The notes under the pieces: model-generated
Databases searched by the model: none
Told to the model about the DNA's origin: nothing
What the model saw: only the letters and a program-made list of their open reading frames with translations
Virus record (IMG/VR): IMGVR_UViG_3300025117_000219
Location: 1-24,783 of that record
DNA: 24,783 bases
Origin: a virus
Reading direction: 5' to 3' (one strand)
Program-made: the position numbers and the translations under genes
Part shown: piece after piece, positions 1,197 to 12,513 of the stretch
Layout: each line of letters opens with the position of its first letter
Numbering within the stretch: the first letter of the stretch is position 1

Positions 1197-1784
1197 TCAT
1201 TCAATACCCAAAATATCCATCAGGTGTTTTGTCTGTGCGTCCCCGGCGGCACCCCTGGCGGCGTCCCTGGCGGCGGCCCCGGCGGCACCCCTGGCGGCGT
1301 CCCTGGCGGCGGCCCCGGCGGCACCCCTGGCGGCGTCCCAGGCGGCGTCCCTGGCGGCGGCCAACTCATCATTCGTAGCCTCGCCATTTGCAAAACGCTC
1401 GGCCACTTCCACCGCCCGCTTGCTGCGCTCATCGGTTAGCAAGTCCCAAATCTGGCGCACGCACCAGCAAGCGAACAGGCGGGCCGTCTTGTCGTTCCAG
1501 GTTTCGAGCTTGCGTACCAGGCGGATTTTCTCGAACACGATCTTGTCGTCGCCGTCAAGTTTTCCCCCCTTGGCTTCAACCTCGAAAATCTGCGCGTCCA
1601 GCCATCGCACAAGATGCGCGGCGTCGGTTACGTGGTAGCCAGTTTCACACATCTCTAAGCTATCCACTTTCGGAAGCCATTTACCCGGCTTCCACGTTCC
1701 ATCGGCGCGCTTTGTCGGCAGATAGGGCGTGTAATCGAAATGGCTGTACGGGCCGGTGTTGTTTTGAGTCAAAGTCTTGTACAT
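1197..1784 (-). CDS. DUF7666-like phage protein with alanine-rich repeat tail
   Basis: A 195-aa protein. The N-terminal half contains W-K-P-G-K-W (about 31-36), an M-C-E-T-G-Y-H motif (about 45-51) and [10 protein letters not shown], which together resemble the DUF7666 fold of phage and bacterial proteins (usually C-x-x-G-F/Y-H). The C-terminal part, about residues 140-182, is a low-complexity helix of A-A-R-D-A-A-R-G units encoded by a 36-bp tandem repeat. Family members often carry such alanine helices, and similar helices occur in Imm5-like immunity proteins. It is the first gene after a conserved leader (1785-1853), with GAGGAG eight bases before ATG 1784. Function unknown; repeat-length variation is likely. 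Confidence 0.75.
1241..1362. repeat. 36-bp tandem repeat inside the DUF7666-like gene
   Basis: Units at 1241-1276 and 1277-1312 are identical; the third (1313-1360) carries an extra 12-bp subunit and a single T-to-A change. The base module is a 12-bp GGCGGC-plus-CCCC/GTCCC-type block, so 36 bp is three modules. All lengths are multiples of three, so the frame is kept and the encoded alanine-rich helix only gets longer or shorter. The pattern fits slipped-strand expansion. It is not a CRISPR: there are no spacers. Confidence 0.95.
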
Positions 1785-2208: not shown

Positions 2209-4515
2209 CTAGGGGGCAGATACATTCGGCTGCTCAAGCGCCATATCTTTCTGTTCTTGTGCCCAGGTGAACAGATCCACCCGATAGGTTGCTTCTGCCC
2301 GTTGCAGGTTCTTTACAGCGGTATTGAAGTAGCTTTCTTTCAGTTCAATCCCAATGGCAGAGCGGCCAAAACGAATGGCCTGGTATGCCTCGCTGCCAAT
2401 GCCCAGGAAGGGGGTTAGAACGGTTTCGCCGGGATTGCTGTACAGCTTGATGCAGCGTTCAATCGTGCCCAACTGAAGCGGGCAGATGTGCTTTTCGTCT
2501 CCCGTATCGCGGGCCTTTGTGAATTGCAGGGTATCGCTTTCCGAGATGCCCAGCCAGATACCATTGGCCCATTCGATCCAGGTTTCGTTATCCAATTCGC
2601 CATGCTCAACCGGGGTGATGGGCACGGCATTCTCTCCCGGTTTCTTGAAAATCAATACCTGGTCTACCAGGGCGGGGCGGCTGTCCGAGCTGTCCTTGCG
2701 GAGTTGCACGAACAGAAGCGCCTTGCTCTTAACCCGAATAGCCTGAGCCTGTGGGTTTTTCTGAACGAACGCCCTGCCGGTGAATGTCCAGCCAAGCGCC
2801 TCGTGCGCCCGGATAACCTCGCCCGGAAAATCCTTCACGCCAATATAACCGTCCCTGCTTGCCATTGCGGCAATGTCACTGGTATGGACGCAGCTCAGGC
2901 GGCCCGGTTTCGTAACCCGCAACAATTCACCAATGATGAATTTATAGTGCTCAAAGAACTCCGCGCTATCCCTTGAGTTCCCCAGGTCTCGTTCAGACGG
3001 GGAGTAGGTGAACAAATCAGCAAAGGGCGGGCTGTAAACCGTCAGATCAATTGAATTGTCGGCAATCTCTGCCAAGCGAATGCACGAATCGCCCAGCTTC
3101 GCCGTGAAGTGCACCCCCTTTACTTCCTGTTCCTGGTACACAGATTGGATGTTATCGTCGGTCATTTTCAGCTCTCCCTTTTCGTAGATTGTGATGTTTT
3201 CGATCAATTTGGCTCGCAGGCGCTTTGCCATTGCATCCTTGCGCATGACGTTTCGATAAATCTCGGATTCGATGTCAGATAAAATCAGGTAGACATCTAC
3301 CGCCGATTGCTGGCGATAGCGCCACTCACGGCGAATTGCCTGGTAGAATGCCTCCCAGCTATCATTCATCCCGAAAAATATCATCTTGTGGGCGTTCTGG
3401 AAGTTCATCCCGTATCCGCCGATTTTTATCTTGGTAATCAGAATGCGGAATTTGCCATCCTGAAAATCCTCAAAGGCCTGGGCTTTATCTTCTGGCTTGT
3501 CAGACCCCTTGACTTCGACCGCGCCAGACAAACTCTTTGCCAGAAGATTGCTTTCGTCATCCAGCCCACACCATATAATCCATTGTTCATCTGGGGCGCT
3601 GGCTAAGACTTCTTTGAGCATCTCGAAGCGCTGCTCGATGGTCATCTTGCGGATCTTGGTTCTATCTTCGATCCCATGCAGCCGGGTGAAAAATAGCTGA
3701 TCCGTAGGTGTATATTCCGCTTCAACGAACATCGGAGTAACGGTCAATTCTGGCAAAATAAAGCCATCATCATCATAGCCCAGGTCGCTCGGTTTCATCA
3801 TGGTCATGGCCCATGAAGCCAGCCATTGAAAGAATGCCTCTTCGGCGTGATGTTTCAGGCGCCATTCTGTACCGGCGGCGTTCGATCCCTTTCGATGATA
3901 AGACTTACCGTCAATATTATAGGTATGCTCTTTGTTGGCATTGACAAAAAAACGAGAGAGCATTTCCTGCTGGCTGCAAATTCCGAGAAACTCAGCATGA
4001 TTGCCGATCTCGGTATAGTCATTCGGGGCGGGCGTAGCGGTACAGCATAGGCGGTATGGAACATCCGAGCAAAGCTCAGTTAGCTTCTGGCGAGTCTTTC
4101 CGCTAATCGCCTTCAGGATGCTGCTTTCATCCAGCACCACAGCCCCGAAAGAACTGATATCGAGGTTGTCTACCATCTCATAATTGGTAATGAAAATCCT
4201 GCCATCATCAACTTCGCTTTGCTCTCTAACGTATTTGATTTGTATATCGAGCTTGGCGGCTTCCCGAACGGTCTGACGTGCCACAGAAAGCGGCGCAATA
4301 ATGAGCGTCATTTCATCCATCAAACGCGCCCATTCAAGCTGGCAGAACGTCTTACCGAGTCCAGTGTCCAAGAAAATCGCAGCACGCCCCCGGCGTACTG
4401 CCCACCGCACAACATCACGCTGGAATGGAAACAGGATCAGGTTTACTTCCCCCGGCTGCTTGCCATAATCTTTTACCTTTACTGCCTTTGATTGCAAGAA
4501 ATTCTTATAATCCAT
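2209..4515 (-). CDS. Fused SNF2-type helicase and DNA N4/N6 methyltransferase
   Basis: A 768-aa two-domain protein starting at ATG 4515, behind leader B. Residues 1-450 are a superfamily 2 helicase: a PFQRDVV Q-motif-like start (30-36), Walker A D-T-G-L-G-K-T (50-56), motif II D-E-S-S (129-132), T-A-T-P (159-162), and an arginine motif Q-A-I-R-R-E-W-R near 393-400. Residues 451-768 are a beta-class amino-methyltransferase: catalytic S-P-P-F (495-498) comes first, and the SAM-binding P-F-L-G-I-G-S (702-708) with I-G-I-E comes last. S-P-P-F is more common in N4-cytosine enzymes, but the base is unproven. Phages often carry these two as neighbours; here they are one frame, with an internal start at the joint. 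Likely roles are DNA modification against host restriction, or DNA remodelling. Confidence 0.9.
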   Translation of the reverse strand: MDYKNFLQSKAVKVKDYGKQPGEVNLILFPFQRDVVRWAVRRGRAAIFLDTGLGKTFCQLEWARLMDEMTLIIAPLSVARQTVREAAKLDIQIKYVREQSEVDDGRIFITNYEMVDNLDISSFGAVVLDESSILKAISGKTRQKLTELCSDVPYRLCCTATPAPNDYTEIGNHAEFLGICSQQEMLSRFFVNANKEHTYNIDGKSYHRKGSNAAGTEWRLKHHAEEAFFQWLASWAMTMMKPSDLGYDDDGFILPELTVTPMFVEAEYTPTDQLFFTRLHGIEDRTKIRKMTIEQRFEMLKEVLASAPDEQWIIWCGLDDESNLLAKSLSGAVEVKGSDKPEDKAQAFEDFQDGKFRILITKIKIGGYGMNFQNAHKMIFFGMNDSWEAFYQAIRREWRYRQQSAVDVYLILSDIESEIYRNVMRKDAMAKRLRAKLIENITIYEKGELKMTDDNIQSVYQEQEVKGVHFTAKLGDSCIRLAEIADNSIDLTVYSPPFADLFTYSPSERDLGNSRDSAEFFEHYKFIIGELLRVTKPGRLSCVHTSDIAAMASRDGYIGVKDFPGEVIRAHEALGWTFTGRAFVQKNPQAQAIRVKSKALLFVQLRKDSSDSRPALVDQVLIFKKPGENAVPITPVEHGELDNETWIEWANGIWLGISESDTLQFTKARDTGDEKHICPLQLGTIERCIKLYSNPGETVLTPFLGIGSEAYQAIRFGRSAIGIELKESYFNTAVKNLQRAEATYRVDLFTWAQEQKDMALEQPNVSAP
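3165..3178 (-). promoter_or_regulatory. Internal ribosome site and start at the helicase/methyltransferase joint
   Basis: Inside the fused gene, GGGAG (3178-3174) lies eight bases before an in-frame ATG at 3165 (M-T-D-D-N). Initiation here would give a separate 318-aa methyltransferase of normal family length. The site may be a relic of a gene fusion or still in use. Confidence 0.55.
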
Positions 4516-4583
4516 TTTATTTTCTCCTGACTTAATCTTACCAGACAATATTCCATGTAACATTGCAGTATCGTGACAACTTT
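4516..4583 (-). promoter_or_regulatory. Conserved leader cassette, copy B
   Basis: Minus-strand order: AAAGTTGTCA (4583-4574), six bases, TGCAATGTTA (4567-4558), fifteen bases, GGTAAGATT, then AGGAGA (4528-4523) and ATG 4515. The upstream gene's TAA (4584-4582) overlaps its edge. With copy A it also shares AAGT just outside the first box. It should drive the helicase/methyltransferase gene. Confidence 0.65.
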
Positions 4584-4776
4584 ACTTTGTGCCCATCCTC
4601 ATCCCGCACCCCGCCCGGTGCGTCAGGTACGCGGCGCGCTTCTCGTTGCTGTCCGGCGCGGCTGCCCAGGCCAGCAACAGGCGCGAGCAGGTGGGGCAGG
4701 CTTTGCGGATTGGCAAGCCGCTCATGCGCTTGTAATACTCCCGCCATGTTTCTCCGTCAATCGGCTGCTTAATCAT
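4582..4776 (-). CDS. Small zinc-binding-like protein (64 aa)
   Basis: The ATG at 4776 overlaps the previous gene's TGA by one base; a GTG one codon earlier is also possible. The sequence has W-R-E-Y-Y-K-R-M near the N-terminus, then C-P-T-C (27-30) and, about 25 residues later, H-R-A-G-C (53-57), a plausible C2HC zinc site. No membrane segment. The stop codon lies exactly at the start of leader B. Fourth in a row of coupled small genes following the DnaD/G39P-like pair, so it is probably co-transcribed with replication genes. Function unknown. Confidence 0.65.
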   Translation of the reverse strand: MIKQPIDGETWREYYKRMSGLPIRKACPTCSRLLLAWAAAPDSNEKRAAYLTHRAGCGMRMGTK

Positions 4777-5143: not shown

Positions 5144-5727
5144 CGTTTGCCATCTCCTAGCATTCTTTTCGCAATGTCGCCGGCTGTCATCGCGCCGGCT
5201 TTGCGGGCTTCGAGGTAGTCACGGATCTGGGGCAGTTCCATCTCGCTTGAGACGGCTTGCCTGAGCGCACCTTCCCACGCCTTGAAAAAGTGCGCCCGAT
5301 CTGCCATCAAATTCTCGTTGCTCGGAAAGTCACGCGGCCAGCCCAATTGACGGGCCACCTGCTCGACAAGCGGGTGCCGCCACGCGTAGTATTCCACCGT
5401 CATCAGCCAGTTACCATCGGCGTCGGCCTCGCCGGTTAGTCGGCGGCGCTCCCCGTCCCATGCCCGGCAAATGTCTTGCCACGCCTCCGCTGCCGTTGGG
5501 ATATTTGCGGCGACCATGCGCAGCTCTGCCACCGCCCCGCGGATCTCTGCAATGGACGGGAAGAATTTACTTGTCGCCACTACCTTGACAATGCCCGCTT
5601 GCAGCTCATCGGGCGGGATGTCTGCCAGCATCCCGGAATAGGCGCGGATAGTATCGGGCGTCAGCTTGAAATTGGGGTAGCTTGCGGCCAGGGCGGTGAT
5701 AACCTGGGCGTGCGTTAGACTGGGCAC
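5140..5727 (-). CDS. Replicative helicase loader/inhibitor, G39P-like
   Basis: A 195-aa protein with a GTG start at 5727 and GAGGAG eight bases upstream; it overlaps the DnaD-like gene by 13 bases. The N-terminal 75 residues match the helical domain of phage helicase loaders such as SPP1 G39P (PF11417): V-I-T-A-L-A-A-S-Y-P-N-F, a middle helix, and K-F-F-P-S-I-A-E-I-R at about 54-63. The rest is helical and Trp-rich (W-Q-D-I, Y-Y-A-W, F-F-K-A-W-E). In SPP1-type phages this protein carries the hexameric helicase to the initiator at the origin. Gene order initiator then loader fits. It is longer than G39P, so only the N-terminal domain is assigned. Confidence 0.62.
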   Translation of the reverse strand: MPSLTHAQVITALAASYPNFKLTPDTIRAYSGMLADIPPDELQAGIVKVVATSKFFPSIAEIRGAVAELRMVAANIPTAAEAWQDICRAWDGERRRLTGEADADGNWLMTVEYYAWRHPLVEQVARQLGWPRDFPSNENLMADRAHFFKAWEGALRQAVSSEMELPQIRDYLEARKAGAMTAGDIAKRMLGDGKR

Positions 5728-6446
5728 GGTATATTCTCCTCTTCGCAGTATTGGCGGATTGCGGCATAACCGGCGGGTTCGTTTACGGTGGGCTTGCGCC
5801 CGTTGCCATTCTTGCCATTGCCGCGCGGCGCAAACTCTTTGCCGTCTTTGCGATTCCTCAGGCAGGCTTCAACGTATGCCCAAGATCGTTTATTCTGTGT
5901 CGCCGCCACGTCAAAGGCCCATGCAATCCATTCGGGCGGGTAGTCCTTCTCTGCCGCTTTCAACTTTTCGGCAATCGTGGTGGTGAGTGTGCCGATTGCC
6001 TGTTCGTAAAGTTTGAAGGAATTGGGGCGGGGTGGCGGCTTCTCCTCCTCATATTCTTTTAACTCTGTATCTGTCTCTGATTCTGGTGTCACATTTCGTG
6101 ACGGATTTTCCTCCCTCTCTGCCGCTTTTCGTTTGCGGTATTCCCTGGCTCGTTCTTTGTCTGGGCTTGCTGCCTGCCGTTCTGCAAAGGCCGGGATGAA
6201 CCATCCTGGCTCACTCAGTGTCACTACCCCGATTTGCGACAAGGCTCGTAAATCCTTCGTCAGCCGCCCCTCATCGGCCCGAAGTCTCCACGCCATAGCG
6301 CTTACGGGTGGTAGTAACCCGCCTTTGTCGTGCTCTTTGGCAATCAGCAATATCTCAATCCAGCGCCGCCAAAGATAGTCTGGGAGCGGCCCTATCTTTG
6401 GGTCGTCTAGTATTTCGATGTAGAGCTTGAGCCAATAATTTGACAT
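5715..6446 (-). CDS. DnaD-like replication initiator (replisome organizer)
   Basis: A 243-aa protein. Residues 1-100 look like a winged-helix domain (Y-W-L-K-L-Y-I-E-I-L-D-D-P-K-I, then a helix pair and L-S-Q-I-G-V-V-T-L). A charged linker with many Glu/Arg/Pro residues (about 100-140) follows. Residues about 143-203 fit the DnaD domain (PF07261): F-K-L-Y-E-Q-A-I-G at the start and W-A-Y-V-E-A-C-L-R-N-R-K-D-G at the end, where the family has Y-x-Y-I-x-x-I-L-x-x-W. Such proteins open the phage origin and recruit the helicase with the loader encoded next. The ATG at 6446 has only a weak ribosome site. A GTCAC dyad lies just upstream and another inside the gene, so self-regulation or an internal origin is possible. 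Confidence 0.8.
   Translation of the reverse strand: MSNYWLKLYIEILDDPKIGPLPDYLWRRWIEILLIAKEHDKGGLLPPVSAMAWRLRADEGRLTKDLRALSQIGVVTLSEPGWFIPAFAERQAASPDKERAREYRKRKAAEREENPSRNVTPESETDTELKEYEEEKPPPRPNSFKLYEQAIGTLTTTIAEKLKAAEKDYPPEWIAWAFDVAATQNKRSWAYVEACLRNRKDGKEFAPRGNGKNGNGRKPTVNEPAGYAAIRQYCEEENIPCPV
6088..6102. promoter_or_regulatory. GTCAC dyad inside the initiator gene
   Basis: Fifteen bases, GTCACATTTCGTGAC, nearly match the palindrome upstream of the same gene (6471-6485): outer half-sites are identical and only the centre differs. It lies in the linker-coding part of the DnaD-like gene, the position where lambda-type initiators have origin iterons. Two copies only, so the role is inferred. 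Confidence 0.4.
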
Positions 6447-6470
6447 TTGTCACATTGTCCGTTTACGTTT

Positions 6471-6485
6471 GTCACGAAACGTGAC
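6471..6485. promoter_or_regulatory. GTCACG dyad upstream of the initiator gene
   Basis: A perfect inverted repeat, GTCACG-AAA-CGTGAC, lies 25 bases before the DnaD-like ATG, with another GTCAC half-site at 6449-6453 next to the start. Together they fill the 40-base gap after the 6735 gene. Fits an operator or initiator binding site. Confidence 0.5.
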
Positions 6486-6486
6486 G

Positions 6487-6735
6487 TTATACATTCAAAC
6501 TTCCGTCAGCATTCTGCGTGACGGTGCGCAGGGTGTCAACGTTGTGACTGAGCCAGTCCCACATGATTTCGGCCTCATCATTCGCCAGCAGCGTGCGGTT
6601 GTCAAAATATAACTTCGGGTAGATTGGCCCGGCGTCCGGGAATTGTTGGGCGATATCTCCGCCCGGCTCGAAGCTCCAGACGGTGCCGCTTTCGGCGTCT
6701 ACGATCCGATGTTCAGATACTTTTACGAGTTTCAT
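6487..6735 (-). CDS. Small phage protein of unknown function (82 aa)
   Basis: ATG 6735 is preceded by AGGAG in a leader nearly identical to that of the 7068 gene (ATAGGAGCGCA in both). The protein has a short beta-rich N-terminus (V-K-V-S-E-H-R-I-V-D-A-E-S-G-T-V-W-S-F), an acidic middle and a W-D-W-L helix near residue 60. Soluble, no cysteines, no membrane segment. It is the last gene before the GTCAC dyad and the replication genes. No family recognised. Confidence 0.75.
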   Translation of the reverse strand: MKLVKVSEHRIVDAESGTVWSFEPGGDIAQQFPDAGPIYPKLYFDNRTLLANDEAEIMWDWLSHNVDTLRTVTQNADGSLNV

Positions 6736-6744
6736 GGTGCGCTC

Positions 6745-7068
6745 CTATCTCTCTGCCGTTACGATAACCGTAACGCTATAAGCGTGCGGATTGTATACAA
6801 CGATGTGCCGGTAATCTACCAGGATTTCGATTGCATAGGGCGATTGGTCACAGGGGGCAAACATGATGTCTGGCGCTTCGGTTGCCAGGCCATTGCCGTC
6901 TACCGTGAAGCAGTTGACGAACGCTGGCAGCGCGCCGAGATTGTGATCGAGCTGCGCACTCTGTCCGGGGTCAATGATGATCATGCCAGACGTAAAGTTT
7001 GCCGGGGCAGCAATCATCCCCGTTGAAAAAAGTAGGACTAACAGGCTGAAAAGTAAACGTTGTTTCAT
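6745..7068 (-). CDS. Secreted or periplasmic small protein with signal peptide
   Basis: ATG 7068 (M-K-Q-R-L-L-F-S-L-L) gives 107 aa and has AGGAG nine bases upstream. A GTG at 7155 in the same frame would add 29 polar residues ahead of the signal sequence, so I reject it. Residues 1-22 form a classic signal peptide (basic start, L-L-V-L-L-F core, cleavage near A-A-P-A). The mature part is beta-rich: I-I-I-D-P-G-Q-S-A-Q, V-N-C-F-T-V-D-G-N-G and a C-terminal Y-S-V-T-V-I-V-T strand, with two cysteines that could form a disulfide. A phage-encoded secreted protein among early genes suggests an effect on the host envelope or a lysogenic conversion trait. No family recognised. Confidence 0.72.
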   Translation of the reverse strand: MKQRLLFSLLVLLFSTGMIAAPANFTSGMIIIDPGQSAQLDHNLGALPAFVNCFTVDGNGLATEAPDIMFAPCDQSPYAIEILVDYRHIVVYNPHAYSVTVIVTAER

Positions 7069-7194
7069 GGCTTGCGCTCCTATCCTGTTCTGATTTGTGC
7101 CGGTTACACTGTCCGGCATTCGGCGTCCCTTTTCCCGTGAGCGTGATGGGGTCACTCGCCGCTCATCTTACAGACAATCCTAAAAGACTATCTC

Positions 7195-7416
7195 TCACTT
7201 GTTGACTGGCTGGCGAATGTTGCCGATACCCGCGCCTTGACGGTTACGGTAGCTTACGGAAGCATTCACGCCAGTTTCACCGCCGATGCTTTTGATTGTA
7301 AGGTACGCGTATCCGGTTGGGCGTCTAGCTAATTCTTTCGTAGCCCCATTGTTCGAAGTGTTCTGGCACAGTATGGGGTGTCTCGCTCCAACCAGATAAA
7401 TAAAAAGAACCCGTGC
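7195..7416 (-). other. Open frame without a standard start codon
   Basis: Seventy-three codons are open in the third minus-strand frame, from just after a TAA (7419-7417) to a TGA at 7197-7195. The translation reads like protein towards its end (for example Y-A-Y-L-T-I-K-S-I-G-G-E near the middle) but has no ATG or TTG; the only GTG is late. It overlaps the end of the 7325-7576 gene in the +1 frame. It may be the displaced 3' end of a broken gene, a frameshift extension of the 7576 gene, or chance. The 7077-7194 stretch beyond it holds nothing else I can support. Confidence 0.3.
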
Positions 7417-7576
7417 TTATCTCAGGCGGCTTTCGTGGCGATAAGATGATTTTAGTCGTGTGTTTGGCAAACACATAACGAAAACCACCTGAGATAAAAA
7501 CAGGTTCTCTATTTATCTTATCGCCATTGTAAGGTTCAGTCAGGCTGCCACCTCTGACATAATCATTATACATCAT
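7325..7576 (-). CDS. AT-richer small ORF of unknown function (83 aa)
   Basis: The start chosen is ATG 7576, which overlaps the upstream gene's TGA (ATGA); a second ATG follows directly. The translation starts M-M-Y-N-D-Y-V-R-G-G and ends F-E-Q-W-G-Y-E-R-I-S. Codons such as ATA, AGA and TTA are more frequent than in neighbours and the GC content is visibly lower, which suggests a different source. A long inverted repeat (7395-7517) covers about half the gene, so its sequence may be shaped by RNA or DNA structure rather than protein. Could be a real small protein or a spurious ORF in a mobile or structural element. Confidence 0.45.
   Translation of the reverse strand: MMYNDYVRGGSLTEPYNGDKINREPVFISGGFRYVFAKHTTKIILSPRKPPEISTGSFYLSGWSETPHTVPEHFEQWGYERIS
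7395..7517 (-). repeat. Long imperfect inverted repeat (possible structured RNA)
   Basis: Arm 7395-7436 pairs with arm 7478-7517: GATAAATA, GAACC, TTATCTCAGG, GG and TTTCGT match exactly. Three of the differing positions, and one of two adjacent mismatches, become G-U pairs in the minus-strand transcript, but A-C mismatches in the plus-strand one. Between the arms, GTGTTTG/CAAACAC forms a small inner hairpin (7460-7474), and GGCGATAAGAT (7437-7447) can pair instead with 7515-7525, an alternative fold. Confidence 0.7.
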
Positions 7577-7848
7577 TCCGCCGATTTTGCAAGCGGATTC
7601 GGCGGCCATTCTGCAATGATGCGCACGTCATAGCCGTCAGTCGTTTCGATCACCGGGCAGCAGGCGTTGACAATGCGAAGGATTGAGCGATAGCGTCCGG
7701 GTGTCATCCTTGGATAGGGCCACTTCCCACCGGGGGAACGGGGCGCACCCATGCAAGGCTCGCCAGGGCCGCAATAGTCGCGGATGTTCACGATGGTTCC
7801 GCATGCGCTTGACGTGGTAATCTCAATTCGTGCGCTTCGATTGTTCAT
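7573..7848 (-). CDS. Small cysteine-containing protein of unknown function (91 aa)
   Basis: ATG 7848 overlaps the TGA of a tiny upstream ORF by four bases, and its own TGA overlaps the next ATG. The protein has beta-type segments (S-A-R-I-E-I-T-T-S-S; Y-D-V-R-I-I-A-E-W), a Pro/Gly-rich loop in the middle (C-G-P-G-E-P-C-M-G) and five cysteines (C-C near residue 64), but no regular zinc spacing. No membrane helix or signal peptide. I do not recognise the family. Confidence 0.65.
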   Translation of the reverse strand: MNNRSARIEITTSSACGTIVNIRDYCGPGEPCMGAPRSPGGKWPYPRMTPGRYRSILRIVNACCPVIETTDGYDVRIIAEWPPNPLAKSAE

Positions 7849-7922
7849 TGCATCCTCTCTCTCATCTCATCTCCCGCCGCCCGGATTGGCCTAACCTGTA
7901 GCCGGGCGGCGGGGGGTGTCAT
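7845..7922 (-). CDS. Tiny ORF filling the gap (25 codons)
   Basis: The ATG at 7922 directly follows the TAA of the upstream gene, and the TGA overlaps the next gene's ATG by four bases. The peptide starts M-T-P-P-A-A-R-L and ends D-E-M-R-E-R-M-Q. It lacks its own ribosome site, so it would need coupled translation, and it covers a 12-bp GC hairpin. Its end resembles the tiny ORF at 11576-11647. It may be a coupling peptide or only a by-product of the conserved GAGATGAGATGA ribosome-site region. Confidence 0.35.
   Translation of the reverse strand: MTPPAARLQVRPIRAAGDEMRERMQ
7873..7913 (-). promoter_or_regulatory. GC-rich hairpin before the 7848 gene
   Basis: CCCGCCGCCCGG (7873-7884) and CCGGGCGGCGGG (7902-7913) form a perfect 12-bp stem with a 17-base loop between the 8294 and 7848 genes. 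No U run follows in the transcript; a GAGATGAGATGA tract does, close to the next start. This fits a translation or RNA-stability element better than a terminator. Confidence 0.6.
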
Positions 7923-8294
7923 TTACACCTTGCGCAGCGTTACGGTGGGCTCGCCCACCTTGCGGAATGCGGCAATCTCAGGGTGCGCCACTGCAAAGCC
8001 GTCCAGGCCCTTGTTATCCCACGTGACGCGCGCCTTGTTGTAGACGGCCATCAAGTAATCACCCTTGACGGTTGCGCCGAAATTGGTTACATCGGCTTTG
8101 ACTTCGGCGGTAAGCTCAGCAATCCCGCCATTCAGGGCGTCCAGGGCCGTGCTTTCTTCGGCGGCAATGTCTGCAAGGGCCTGCTGGATTTCGGGCGTCA
8201 TGATGCTCTTGCGCAACTCATCGAAGTGAAGGCGCATGACATCGGCCTGGGCCTGCATTTCTGATAATCGGTCTAACTTTTGCTTGGTATCCAT
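7923..8294 (-). CDS. Phage early-region protein with coiled coil (123 aa)
   Basis: ATG 8294 has GAGGAG six bases upstream; the ATG at 8300 touches that site, so it is less likely. Residues 1-65 are an amphipathic, Glu/Ala-rich helix (D-R-L-S-E-M-Q-A-Q; A-D-I-A-A-E-E-S-T-A-L-D). The C-terminal part has V-K-G-D-Y-L-M-A-V-Y, then R-V-T-W-D-N-K-G-L-D-G-F-A-V-A-H-P-E-I and a final V-T-L-R-K-V. This T-W-D-x-x-x-L-D-G-Y/F-A pattern is common in phage proteins next to recombination genes and recalls the Gam-like nuclease-inhibitor layout, but I would not assign that function. Confidence 0.72.
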   Translation of the reverse strand: MDTKQKLDRLSEMQAQADVMRLHFDELRKSIMTPEIQQALADIAAEESTALDALNGGIAELTAEVKADVTNFGATVKGDYLMAVYNKARVTWDNKGLDGFAVAHPEIAAFRKVGEPTVTLRKV

Positions 8295-8323
8295 TTTCAT
8301 CTCCTCGTTTCAGATCCACCCGC

Positions 8324-8548
8324 CTATTTATGGCGGTTGATCCTGCGCGACTTGGCGGCGATTTTGCGGCGCTTCTTACTCTCGCCTTGCCCGGTATTTT
8401 TCGTAAAGCCACGATGACGGGAAGTGTTGTCGCGGTGCTGCGGGGTTGGTTCGTGCCCAATATTGGAATTGCTCAACTTTCCATAGGCGTCTTGCGCATT
8501 CTTGAGAAAGTTCTCAACTGCATCGTGAATGAGTTTCGCTGGGTTCAT
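8324..8548 (-). CDS. Small basic protein of unknown function (74 aa)
   Basis: The start chosen is ATG 8548 (M-N-P-A-K-L-I-H-D-A-V-E-N-F), with GGAGAG a few bases upstream; in-frame ATGs at 8560 and 8605 would add residues encoded by the hairpin region. The first 30 residues look helical; the C-terminus is strongly basic (S-K-K-R-R-K, K-S-R-R, then N-R-H-K), suited to binding nucleic acid. The stop lies in a small GGCGG hairpin (8320-8336) ahead of the next gene. No family recognised. Confidence 0.6.
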   Translation of the reverse strand: MNPAKLIHDAVENFLKNAQDAYGKLSNSNIGHEPTPQHRDNTSRHRGFTKNTGQGESKKRRKIAAKSRRINRHK

Positions 8549-8572
8549 TTTTCTCTCCATTCGATTTGTTAT

Positions 8573-8648
8573 CCACCCGCCGCCAGTCCCGGTGTCATCC
8601 GGCATTTTGCCTACAGGTGAGTGTTAGGTGCATCCTGGCGGCGGGTGG
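8573..8648 (-). promoter_or_regulatory. Long-loop inverted repeat before the 8548 gene
   Basis: CCACCCGCCGCCAG (8573-8586) and its exact complement at 8635-8648 form a 14-bp perfect stem around 48 bases, filling the gap between the 9818 and 8548 genes. The end of the stem, GGCGGGTGGAT, recurs near 8308-8324 before the 8294 gene. No U run, so not an ordinary terminator. Confidence 0.6.
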
Positions 8649-8657
8649 TTGGGTTAC

Positions 8658-9818
8658 TTACACAATCGGCTGTACGCCGTTCTGCTCTGCCAGGTGCGTG
8701 CTGTAACGAATGAGCAAATCCAGGGCGTCACGCTTCTGGGTAATGTCTGCCCGCTGTTCGTCGGTAGTCTGCGCATCCTTGATAGCAGCCTCGCACTTGA
8801 TGAGCATTCCGCGCAGGAACGGGAGATCAATGTCGCCAAAGCGCTGCCCGTCTTTCGATTGCATGTTCATCGCTGCTTCAACGGCGGCATTGTCAAACTC
8901 TGCAACCGGGGCGGGCTGTTCGACTTCTGGCTCTGCGTCAGCGCCAGTCGGTTCGTCGGGTTCGGTTTCGTCATTCCCAGACGGCAGGGCGGGAAGGTTG
9001 CTAAAGTCGGTGCGGGCGGATAGGGCAGCAACCCCCGGCATGATGCTATCCAGCAGCCGGAATTGCGCACCTGCCCAATCGGGGCGAATTTCAATGTGCA
9101 AAAGATAATGCTCTTCCATGTGCTTGCGCCCGCCATACGATACGCTGATGCTCTCAAGCTGGCGAACGATCACCATCGGCACCATTGGCAGGGTTGTACC
9201 GGCGTTCTCCGCAATGTGCTTTATTCCGGCAAGCTGCTCAGAAATGCGGGCGATGTTGTAGATCGAATGGGTGATGATCTGGACATAGTTCATGCGTCCA
9301 AGTTCGGGGATAAGAATGTTCAGGCGCCCGGTCTGCTTGGCATAAACCGGCACATCTTCGCCGGTCTTTTGGTTTTTGTAGCTGTACACCGGCACGTTCG
9401 GATCGAATGGTAAATACTCGTTACCATTTTCGTCAAGGTGGCCGGTTGGCTCCGTTGGCTTTCCGTTCCGGTCAACCTTCACCTCCCCGGTCTTGTTGTT
9501 GCACAGGTACAGCCACTTGACACCATCGGACTTGCCCAGCAGCCCGGTCTTGTTGTACACCTCGAAGTTGGCATCCCAGCAGCGGGCAACGTCATTGAAG
9601 GGCAGCCGGAAGTTGATAGCAGTCGGCTTGTCGGTGTAAAACTTGATAAAATCATTGAAGGCGTCAACGGCATTCGGGCGGAAGTCGGGCCGGAAATAAC
9701 CAATCTCTTTCGGCCCCTTGCCAATCTTGGCGATCTCCGCTTTTGAAATTCCCAGGCGCAAGCGCCCGATTTCACTGAATGACGGCGGGCCGTCTGTTAG
9801 TCCAACAATCGGTGACAT
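8658..9818 (-). CDS. Gp3-like recombination directionality factor / metal-binding-like protein
   Basis: A 386-aa protein with AGGAG seven bases before ATG 9818. The opening S-E-I-G-R-L-R-L-G (15-23), the following G-Y-F-R-P-D, the A-I-N-F-R-L-P-F-N-D segment (about 68-77) and W-D-A-N-F-E-V-Y-N-K-T-G-L follow the layout of Gp3-like proteins (PF18897), often named phage hydrolase or metal-binding proteins; the phiC31 member controls excision by a serine integrase. A central domain ends near residue 270, followed by an acidic Pro/Glu linker and a C-terminal helical region (L-R-G-M-L-I-K-C-E-A-A). No integrase is in the window, so the excision role is inference; a role in DNA replication or repair is possible. 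Confidence 0.6.
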   Translation of the reverse strand: MSPIVGLTDGPPSFSEIGRLRLGISKAEIAKIGKGPKEIGYFRPDFRPNAVDAFNDFIKFYTDKPTAINFRLPFNDVARCWDANFEVYNKTGLLGKSDGVKWLYLCNNKTGEVKVDRNGKPTEPTGHLDENGNEYLPFDPNVPVYSYKNQKTGEDVPVYAKQTGRLNILIPELGRMNYVQIITHSIYNIARISEQLAGIKHIAENAGTTLPMVPMVIVRQLESISVSYGGRKHMEEHYLLHIEIRPDWAGAQFRLLDSIMPGVAALSARTDFSNLPALPSGNDETEPDEPTGADAEPEVEQPAPVAEFDNAAVEAAMNMQSKDGQRFGDIDLPFLRGMLIKCEAAIKDAQTTDEQRADITQKRDALDLLIRYSTHLAEQNGVQPIV

Positions 9819-9831
9819 ATTGTTTCTCCTC

Positions 9832-10125
9832 TCAGAAACCTAACTCTTTTATGATTTGTTCTGCCGTCTTATTCCGGTTTGGATTGGGGAATAGGTCGGG
9901 CAGGTTATTCTTTACTTCGCTGCGCTCGGCGAGGGCCTGCTGCCCCAACCGCTCGGCATAGGCCCGGCTCACGGTTGCGCCGCCCCAGGCGTCGCCACAG
10001 GTCGGGCAGCTTGCGTCCCACATGCGGTTATCGGCCTGGGTCTTGATAAGATCGCCATAGCAGCGGGCGCAAACCCGGCGGGAGATGAACTGATCTATTT
10101 CGCCGTCTTGGAAGGTTGCGGTCAT
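9832..10125 (-). CDS. Zinc-ribbon protein (97 aa)
   Basis: ATG 10125 overlaps the preceding TGA by four bases. Residues about 19-44 hold C-A-R-C-Y-G and C-P-T-C-G-D-A-W-G-G, two knuckles of a rubredoxin-like zinc ribbon, followed by a helix (R-A-Y-A-E-R-L-G-Q-Q-A-L-A-E) and a basic, Asn-rich tail (N-P-N-R-N-K-T). Its place just ahead of the Gp3-like gene suggests a shared DNA-related job, as zinc ribbons often act as nucleic-acid adaptors. Function unknown. Confidence 0.78.
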   Translation of the reverse strand: MTATFQDGEIDQFISRRVCARCYGDLIKTQADNRMWDASCPTCGDAWGGATVSRAYAERLGQQALAERSEVKNNLPDLFPNPNRNKTAEQIIKELGF

Positions 10126-10445
10126 GGTAAACCTTCTTCGGTCATCACATGGGCGGCTTCGTGCCGCTCATCCATTCCAGACATAAGCGCACCGAGTTCG
10201 TTCTGCCACTTCTGATAAATCTCGTAATACTTGTTTTCCAGGTCGGCGGCCACTTCCGCGGCGTCCTCGATCTCTGCCCAGGTGAAGGCGTTCTCGCCGT
10301 CCATCTTGCGGTCTACCAGGGTGGCATGATCTGCCCAGGCCTGTTCGTACTGCTCGCGGGCGGCAATGACGTAATCGGGGGCGAAGCGGTGCGTTGGTTT
10401 GTAGTCGTGAACGGTGGTGTACTCAATTCCGATTGTGTCAGTCAT
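10122..10445 (-). CDS. Acidic helical phage protein (107 aa)
   Basis: First gene after leader C, with AGGAG ten bases before ATG 10445. After a short beta start (I-G-I-E-Y-T-T-V-H-D-Y) the protein is mostly helical and aromatic/acidic: R-E-Q-Y-E-Q-A-W-A-D-H, a W-A-E-I-E-D-A-A-E-V-A-A-D-L helix, then Y-Y-E-I-Y-Q-K-W. No cysteines or membrane segment. It is coupled to the zinc-ribbon gene and probably starts a short operon that also holds the Gp3-like gene. No family recognised. Confidence 0.72.
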   Translation of the reverse strand: MTDTIGIEYTTVHDYKPTHRFAPDYVIAAREQYEQAWADHATLVDRKMDGENAFTWAEIEDAAEVAADLENKYYEIYQKWQNELGALMSGMDERHEAAHVMTEEGLP

Positions 10446-10514
10446 GGCTTTTTCTCCTAACCCAATCTTACCAGAAAACTATGCCATTTAACATTGCAGT
10501 TGCATATCAATCTT
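10446..10514 (-). promoter_or_regulatory. Conserved leader cassette, copy C
   Basis: TGCAATGTTA at 10498-10489, sixteen bases, GGTAAGATT, then TTAGGAGA and ATG 10445. The outer box is degenerate here (AAGATTGATA at 10514-10505 instead of AAAGTTGTCA) but keeps the six-base spacing, and the TGA of the 38-aa ORF lies within it. Confidence 0.6.
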
Positions 10515-10623
10515 CGCCGCGCTCATGCCTGCTGATCCTGCTGCTCAGGATCGCCGCACTCAGAACGCAGCCAGCGAAGATTATACCCAGGATTATTATA
10601 CCCAGGATTATAATGGCGGTCAT
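10507..10623 (-). CDS. 38-residue single-pass membrane protein
   Basis: ATG 10623 overlaps the upstream gene's TGA (ATGA); the TGA is at 10509-10507. The peptide starts M-T-A-I-I-I-L-G-I-I-I-L-G-I-I-F, a membrane helix over about residues 3-25, with a duplicated I-I-L-G-I unit visible in the DNA as CCCAGGATTAT repeated at 10577 and 10591. The tail is basic and charged (S-R-I-S-R-H-E-R-G-E-D), so the C-terminus should face the cytoplasm. Size, coupling and tail suggest a small phage membrane effector; function unknown. Confidence 0.65.
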   Translation of the reverse strand: MTAIIILGIIILGIIFAGCVLSAAILSSRISRHERGED

Positions 10624-12003: not shown

Positions 12004-12302
12004 TTCGCCCCTGCCAGATAAGCAAAGCGCCCGGTGTAATGAGTCGGGTGGTGGTGTGCGCTCAGGAAATAATCAACGCTGCGCACCATGCCGTGAATGG
12101 CGTTCTGAATGGCCTTGTGGTCAAACTTCCACACTGGAAGGTGAGAGAAAAGCCGCTCGCCGTCAACGTCTGCCACGATGCGGATATAGTCGCGGTCAAT
12201 TGCGCCGCTCTCGCTGGTGCAGGTGTCATACTCTACGCCAATAGCGACTGCGTGCTTCTTGCCGGTTGCATCTGTAATCTTGTCAGTCCATTTGGTTTCC
12301 AT
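12000..12302 (-). CDS. Phage protein of unknown function (100 aa)
   Basis: First gene after leader D, with AGGAGATGAGACAAA before ATG 12302. It has a beta-rich core (A-V-A-I-G-V-E-Y-D-T; Y-I-R-I-V-A-D-V-D-G-E-R-L-F) and a helix A-I-Q-N-A-I-H-G-M-V-R-S-V, then S-A-H-H-H-P-T-H near residue 81-88, which could bind metal. No membrane segment. No family recognised. Confidence 0.72.
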   Translation of the reverse strand: METKWTDKITDATGKKHAVAIGVEYDTCTSESGAIDRDYIRIVADVDGERLFSHLPVWKFDHKAIQNAIHGMVRSVDYFLSAHHHPTHYTGRFAYLAGAK

Positions 12303-12373
12303 TTTGTCTCATCTCCTGACTTAATATTACCAGAAAAGCACCCCGTTTAACATTGCAAATTCATGACAACTTT
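12303..12373 (-). promoter_or_regulatory. Conserved leader cassette, copy D
   Basis: AAAGTTGTCA (12373-12364), six bases, TGCAATGTTA (12357-12348; preceded by T, so TTGCAA), sixteen bases, GGTAATATT as the best -10 of the four copies, then AGGAGA and ATG 12302. The upstream 46-codon ORF ends exactly at its edge (TGA 12375-12373). Confidence 0.65.
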
Positions 12374-12513
12374 CAGCGGATGTTAACTGCCGCATTGAAG
12401 GCGCTGGCGATCTGTGTTATACTATCGACGTAGCCACGGCGACGGTCCAAAAAGCGGGCGAGCTTGATCTCCTCAAGCTCGCCCGCGTGCATTCCATATC
12501 GGGTAATTATCAT
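12373..12513 (-). CDS. Small ORF of 46 codons across a terminator-like stem
   Basis: From ATG 12513 (M-I-I-T-R-Y-G) or ATG 12492 (M-H-A-G) the frame runs to a TGA that touches leader D. The translation looks like a helical protein: G-E-L-E-E-I-K-L-A-R-F-L, then D-R-R-R-G-Y-V-D-S-I-T-Q-I-A-S-A-F. Neither start has a clear ribosome site; a CATAAT -10-like sequence nine bases before ATG 12513 would allow a nearly leaderless message. The strong stem at 12449-12486 lies inside. Either the gene is real and contains an attenuator, or the frame is fortuitous. Confidence 0.45.
   Translation of the reverse strand: MIITRYGMHAGELEEIKLARFLDRRRGYVDSITQIASAFNAAVNIR
12449..12486 (-). terminator. Intrinsic terminator-like stem with T-run
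   Basis: On the minus strand a perfect 14-bp stem (arms 12486-12473 and 12467-12454, GCGGGCGAGCTTGA with its complement), a five-base loop GGAGA, then TTTTT (12453-12449). This is a textbook rho-independent terminator for messages coming from the lysis and metallophosphoesterase genes, dividing them from the early genes that restart at leader D. It overlaps a plausible ORF. Confidence 0.75.

Follow-up and report, generated by a model that had tools for sequence, protein, structure and literature searches.

A promoter-linked RNA module with two crossing folds, probably an on/off switch for phage genes, in a group of uncultured phages

The DNA analysed here (the window) spans 24,783 bp and is the IMG/VR virus contig IMGVR_UViG_3300025117_000219, whose main genes lie on the minus strand. 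Among these, the gene at 2209–4563 (minus strand) encodes a helicase and an N6/N4 DNA methyltransferase fused into one 784-aa protein; in Gordonia and Mycobacterium phages the helicase and the methyltransferase are separate adjoining genes. Another gene (1197–1784, minus strand) carries a 12-bp tandem repeat that is translated into a collagen-like Gly-rich stretch. Four genes are preceded by an element of about 75 nt (minus strand; 1782–1857, 4513–4587, 10443–10518 and 12302–12377; 67–90% identity), which is also found in the relatives L014 and L015, contains TTGTCATG..TGCAATGTTA and ends in a ribosome-binding site. This repeated element is probably a phage promoter or operator. GC skew changes sign in 5500–10500 although the main genes there are all on the minus strand, and a replication origin may lie near the RNA module described below and a DnaD-like gene.

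The stretch at 7195–7576 has a GC content of 46.6%, against 55.5% for the whole window. A sequence-only reading had described it as an AT-richer insert; the composition stands, but the stretch is better read as a self-contained module that extends from a −35 box to a U-run. On the minus strand, its parts would follow one another in this order. A sigma-70-type promoter, the only such site in 6600–8700, comprises a −35 box TTGCAA (7587–7592) and a −10 box TATAAT (7565–7570) that together match at 10 of 12 positions and are separated by a 16-base spacer; the −35 box is identical in L015, and TATAAT also stands upstream of each of the four elements described below (L015, L017, L021a and L021b). 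Transcription would start near 7557–7560. Next come a small 5′ hairpin, P0 (GTCAG/CTGAC, 7539–7558), recognised from its sequence and its counterparts in relatives, the 5′ strand of helix P1 (GGCGATAAGAT, 7515–7525), the 5′ arm of P2 (7478–7507) and, inside the P2 loop, the hairpin P3 (TGTGTTT-GCC-AAACACA, 7459–7475), supported by sequence and comparison. The 3′ strand of P1, assigned by comparison (ATCTTATCGCC, 7437–7447), lies immediately 5′ of the P2 3′ arm (7407–7436); both P2 arms were delimited by folding and comparison. The module closes with a U-run, TTTTTATTTAT (7396–7406), the putative termination site. On the same strand, a Shine-Dalgarno-like TTGGAG (7386–7391) is found 3′ of the U-run, and L021a has TTGGAG at the corresponding position, followed by an ATG. 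The window has no ordinary start codon behind its TTGGAG: the first codon of frame B (59 codons, 7198–7374, minus strand) after this site would be ATA. We found zero relatives of frame B, which is possibly a former or present downstream gene and may be decayed, start-lost or oddly started.

Several features named in the sequence-only reading were recovered. The inverted repeat with arms at 7395–7436 and 7478–7517 is present and pairs over about 40 bp, the 7-bp inner hairpin (P3) is exact, and so is the second pairing of 7437–7447 with 7515–7525 (P1), which spans 11 bp, or 12 if the next base is included, and is also conserved in relatives. Folding of the minus strand over 7385–7535 gave −62.8 kcal/mol (z −9.2; 0 of 200 shuffles as stable), and folding of the plus strand −51.1 kcal/mol (z −6.6). 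The overlapping ORF (7325–7609) was indeed atypical in codon use, with a score of −0.08 per codon, whereas the 17 window ORFs on which the scoring was trained range from +0.10 to +0.58, and the reported 73-codon frame without a start exists at 7195–7416.

Relatives were gathered through the helicase-methyltransferase gene (2209–4563). One contig, IMGVR_UViG_3300009285_000636, is 99.9% identical to the window and the same at 7195–7576, and thus adds nothing. In L015 (IMGVR_UViG_3300002097_000378) the helicase is 96% identical in amino acids to that of the window, and the block from TTGCAA to the U-run, a module of about 200 bp, shares 74% nucleotide identity with its counterpart. The genes that flank it upstream (159 aa) and downstream (251 aa) encode different proteins from those of the window. 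L015 and the window agree exactly in the promoter hexamers and the start region and differ at about half of the 16 positions in the spacer, a footprint that would be expected of a used promoter. P0 is present at the same place as GTCGG/CCGGC. In P1, GCGATAAGAT/ATCTTATCGC of the window becomes GCGGGAAGCG/CGCTTCCCGC in L015, with four double changes, six identical pairs and no break; in P2 the changes mostly keep G-U or A-U pairs, one mismatch being common to both and one new. In L015, two in-frame stops interrupt the frame homologous to the ORF over the hairpin, yet the pairing persists, and therefore the structure is kept and the protein is not. This is the opposite of what the sequence-only reading had named as evidence against an RNA, namely relatives that keep the protein and lose the pairing.

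A covariance search, which that reading had proposed, extended the family. The model (R1) was built from P2 and P3 of the window and L015, with P1 left out, and was searched against 426 kb of loci. It matched L021:4758–4873 (L021a; E 1.4e-8) and L017:12387–12508 (E 5e-7), in phages whose helicases are 60–62% identical to that of the window. Each match has TATAAT upstream, a loop hairpin of other sequence at the position of P3 and a U-run downstream; the −35 box of L017 is poor. Counterparts of P0 are CTGCG/CGCAG in L017 and AGAC/GTCT in L021a. Across the four members, 90 of 96 P2 cells are paired and 13 of 24 pairs show double changes, numbers that 0 of 5000 shuffles reached; when the register was slid, pairing fell to about half. 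With a counting tool applied to 15 MAFFT-aligned P2 pairs, 98.3% were paired and 6 had double changes (0 of 500 shuffles). Because MAFFT misaligned the 5′ part of the full-length sense RNAs, the pairs of P1 and upper P2 were counted on a hand alignment. P1 recurs at the same relative position in L021a (CTGGCGGC/GCCGCCAG, 8 bp, p 0.003) and in L017 (TTGGCGG/CCGCCAA, 7 bp, p 0.027), and since it was outside the R1 model, its recurrence is an independent test. A four-member model scored its own members at 99–134 bits on the sense strands and 16–29 bits on the antisense strands. The G-U bias claimed for the minus strand held in the window, where four arm differences are U-G on that strand and A-C on the plus strand, but was only moderate across the homologues (10 cells G-U in sense versus 4 G-U only in antisense). 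By this comparison, four phages carry homologous modules, and P1 and P2 are both kept with compensatory changes even though they cross.

An architecture descriptor (promoter, P1, P2, and P1′ within a few bases of P2′) run on 426–454 kb of loci matched only the four homologues and one more element, L021:8179–8314 (L021b). This element has a perfect TTGACA-16-TATAAT promoter and a P1 of about 21 bp, and it precedes the helicase gene, whose ribosome-binding site is held in the P2 foot. Looser helix and −10 settings gave a few weak extra matches with a 6-base P1, and L017 was displaced by an overlapping hairpin. As background, Markov sequence amounting to 0.93 million strand-bases gave 3 hits when the descriptor was run without its promoter. 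L021b shares the architecture and has no detectable sequence similarity to the other elements; for this reason, and because it was picked by the descriptor, we treat it as weaker evidence. Separately, L021:6591–6701 (minus strand) holds an inverted repeat whose 21-bp arms match perfectly around a 69-nt loop, together with another complementarity of 11 bp. It has no promoter, adjoins the end of a 490-aa gene and is possibly a terminator or another RNA.

The module fits no catalogued RNA family: searches of Rfam 15 gave zero matches at the gathering threshold, and at E up to 10 only low, chance-like ones (animal microRNA precursors and similar). A tRNA/tmRNA search found none. As a test for a retron msr-msd, we looked for a reverse transcriptase and found none among the scanned window proteins, which included part of the small ORFs, or, by Pfam, among the genes next downstream of the elements in L015, L017 and L021. 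Other copies, which the sequence-only reading had suggested seeking by blastn, did not turn up in phage and plasmid collections, and the element was absent from five cultured relatives identified by helicase or DnaD (Gordonia, Mycobacterium, Rhodococcus and Parageobacillus phages and a Rhodoplanes plasmid). The family, four homologues and one look-alike, was found only within this narrow phage group, the collection scans being exact-core scans. With the two-arm core TTATCTCAGG..CCTGAGATAA, viral contigs gave seven matches beyond the near-identical contig, all from one unrelated family that shares a 10-mer pair by chance and forms no long hairpin. In genome contigs, a core pattern matched only one Treponema sequence; this reads as the protein PPEITTGSYGD, which resembles a family 9 glycoside hydrolase motif, and the match was judged to be chance.

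Taken together, these comparisons indicate that the stretch at 7195–7576 is a small structured minus-strand RNA, neither a broken gene nor a mobile element, and that the module appears to be made from its own promoter by a group of uncultured phages, usually just 5′ of a gene. We are highly confident in the comparative part, namely a conserved, promoter-linked, two-fold RNA, which is common to the attenuator and small-RNA readings discussed below. The structured regulatory RNA that the sequence-only reading had listed among its alternatives is thereby supported, its competing pairing (P1) being conserved.

The order of strands (P1-5′, P2-5′, P1-3′, P2-3′) makes the two helices cross. Upstream of the P2 5′ arm the linker measures 6–17 nt, and P1′ and P2′ are separated by 0–5 nt. 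A nucleotide spans about 6 Angstrom and a base pair about 2.8 Angstrom; the first linker would therefore be too short to span P1 together with the 30-bp P2, so that coexistence of both helices at full length should be excluded by geometry. On this geometric argument, two mutually exclusive folds, as expected of an attenuator, are both conserved. Two incompatible folds, each preserved by evolution, suggest that the module is probably an on/off switch for phage genes. We modelled growing transcripts by equilibrium folding of prefixes. P1 entered the best structure once its 3′ strand existed in the window, L015, L017 and L021b, and was only transiently and partly favoured in L021a; P2 replaced P1 after about 4–28 nt of its 3′ arm. 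The succession of P1 first and then P2 was thus predicted in four of the five elements, and an early P1 followed by a late P2 and U-run is the order that would be expected of an attenuator. A U-run lies 3′ of P2 in all five elements (the window, L015, L017, L021a and L021b), in the first four as a U-rich tail 3′ of the hairpin; that of the window is interrupted by an A. A simple terminator scan, which considers only loops of 3–8 nt, reported none in the module because the P2 loop is large. A gene start was found just 3′ of the element, within about 30 nt, in L015, L017, L021a and L021b; the gene encodes a DnaD-like initiator (PF07261) in L017 and a helicase in L021b.

On balance, these sequence and folding results lean towards a promoter-linked attenuator of the next gene, placed at genes of the replication module. 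As the polymerase advances, P1 would close first and hold the P2 5′ arm inside its closed loop. Emergence of the P2 3′ arm would then let P2, the stronger rod, form and displace P1; with the U-run, it would end transcription. If instead P1 persisted, whether because a factor binds, because of polymerase speed or because the polymerase is modified, transcription would continue past the U-run and the following gene would be expressed. Short frames occur in the window, L015 and L017, and none is common to all members, so that attenuation controlled by a leader peptide is not supported. Several points speak against an attenuator: only four homologues are available, the window has no ordinary start codon behind the element, its U-run is interrupted and the terminator scan reported none, P1 is only partly favoured in L021a, the −35 box of L017 is poor, and the downstream genes differ, which also fits an RNA acting in trans.

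Such a trans-acting RNA is the main rival. The module could yield an independent phage small RNA about 165 nt long, transcribed from the module's own promoter, ended at the U-run and acting as an antisense, a double-stranded decoy or a protein-binding rod, with P1 as a folding guide and the next gene expressed independently. The self-contained block from promoter to U-run between unrelated genes, the lack of an intact gene start behind the element in the window and the preservation of a very long rod while its sequence changes all agree with this. However, distant members have not kept the same arm sequences, a point against a fixed antisense target, the P2 foot of L021b covers the ribosome-binding site of the helicase gene, and four of the five elements have a gene start close behind them. 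Since those gene starts are joined by the P1-then-P2 order, we prefer the attenuator and regard the terminated, trans-acting RNA as unlikely, if still to be taken seriously.

We consider it improbable that the repeat is a DNA-level signal, that is, a cruciform or single-strand hairpin used in replication as an origin or primosome site. DnaD-like and helicase-loader genes lie 1 kb downstream and the cumulative GC skew has its minimum near 6.5 kb, as such a signal might predict, but the same-strand promoter is conserved, the covariance models favour the sense strand, G-U pairs are in excess there (10 versus 4), and L021 has two elements before two different genes.

A coding origin is very improbable. 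The ORF at 7325–7609, perhaps frameshifted into the following frame, did look coding at first sight, its start overlapping the stop of the upstream ORF (ATGA, 7573–7576) and the arm differences falling mostly in third codon positions; against this, its codon score lies below those of all 17 scored window ORFs, protein relatives were not found, and L015 breaks the frame with two stops while its pairing survives with compensatory change, so the decayed gene proposed for the ORF over the hairpin was rejected. Equally improbable is a small mobile element or palindromic repeat (MITE, REP or Rickettsia-palindrome-like), a further suggestion of the sequence-only reading: the long imperfect palindrome, AT-richer than its surroundings, would suit one, but the contig holds a single copy where MITE or REP elements call for several at unrelated sites, scans with the core patterns gave no copies elsewhere except in the near-identical contig and L015, homologues occur only in related phages and no target duplication was seen at the ends.

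The favoured attenuator resembles transcription attenuators and riboswitch expression platforms in its promoter, its two-fold leader, its hairpin with a U-run and, in four of the five elements, the gene start just behind. In usual attenuators the antiterminator and terminator share a strand, whereas P1 and P2 have hardly any bases in common and would exclude each other by crossing; P2, at about 30 bp, is also much longer than usual terminators, and neither a ligand pocket nor a leader peptide was found that all members share. The lambda pR′-tR′ leader (6S RNA of lambda) and other promoter-terminator pairs are opened by phage antitermination. The module is like pR′-tR′ in having a constitutive-looking promoter, a leader of 150–200 nt and a putative terminator before phage genes, and differs from it in its replication-region genes, its two-fold architecture and its unrelated sequence; no antiterminator protein was identified. 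Pseudoknot leaders such as SAM-II riboswitches likewise contain helices that cross, and, as proposed for the module, their transcription may end within the leader and so release a small RNA; a SAM-II leader has been predicted to terminate and give a small RNA (PMC9373788). The SAM-II helices are short and coexist around the ligand, whereas the crossing helix of the module is a 30-bp rod, for which full coexistence should be geometrically excluded, and the module has no Rfam match.

Gene callers would annotate a small hypothetical protein at this locus, which the RNA reading, if true, would correct. More tentatively, the module may represent a new class of phage RNA switch whose helices have almost no bases in common and exclude each other solely by crossing, in a knot-like manner, so that the early helix locks the 5′ arm in a closed loop and delays a very long terminator; it could be an interchangeable promoter-leader cassette placed before replication-region genes, an arrangement that would have been reached twice, with unrelated sequence, in L021. 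If true, this would be a portable RNA control cassette whose logic lies in folding order and topology rather than in competition for one strand. It would also offer a clean natural system for co-transcriptional folding and a new RNA family to seek in phage genomes.
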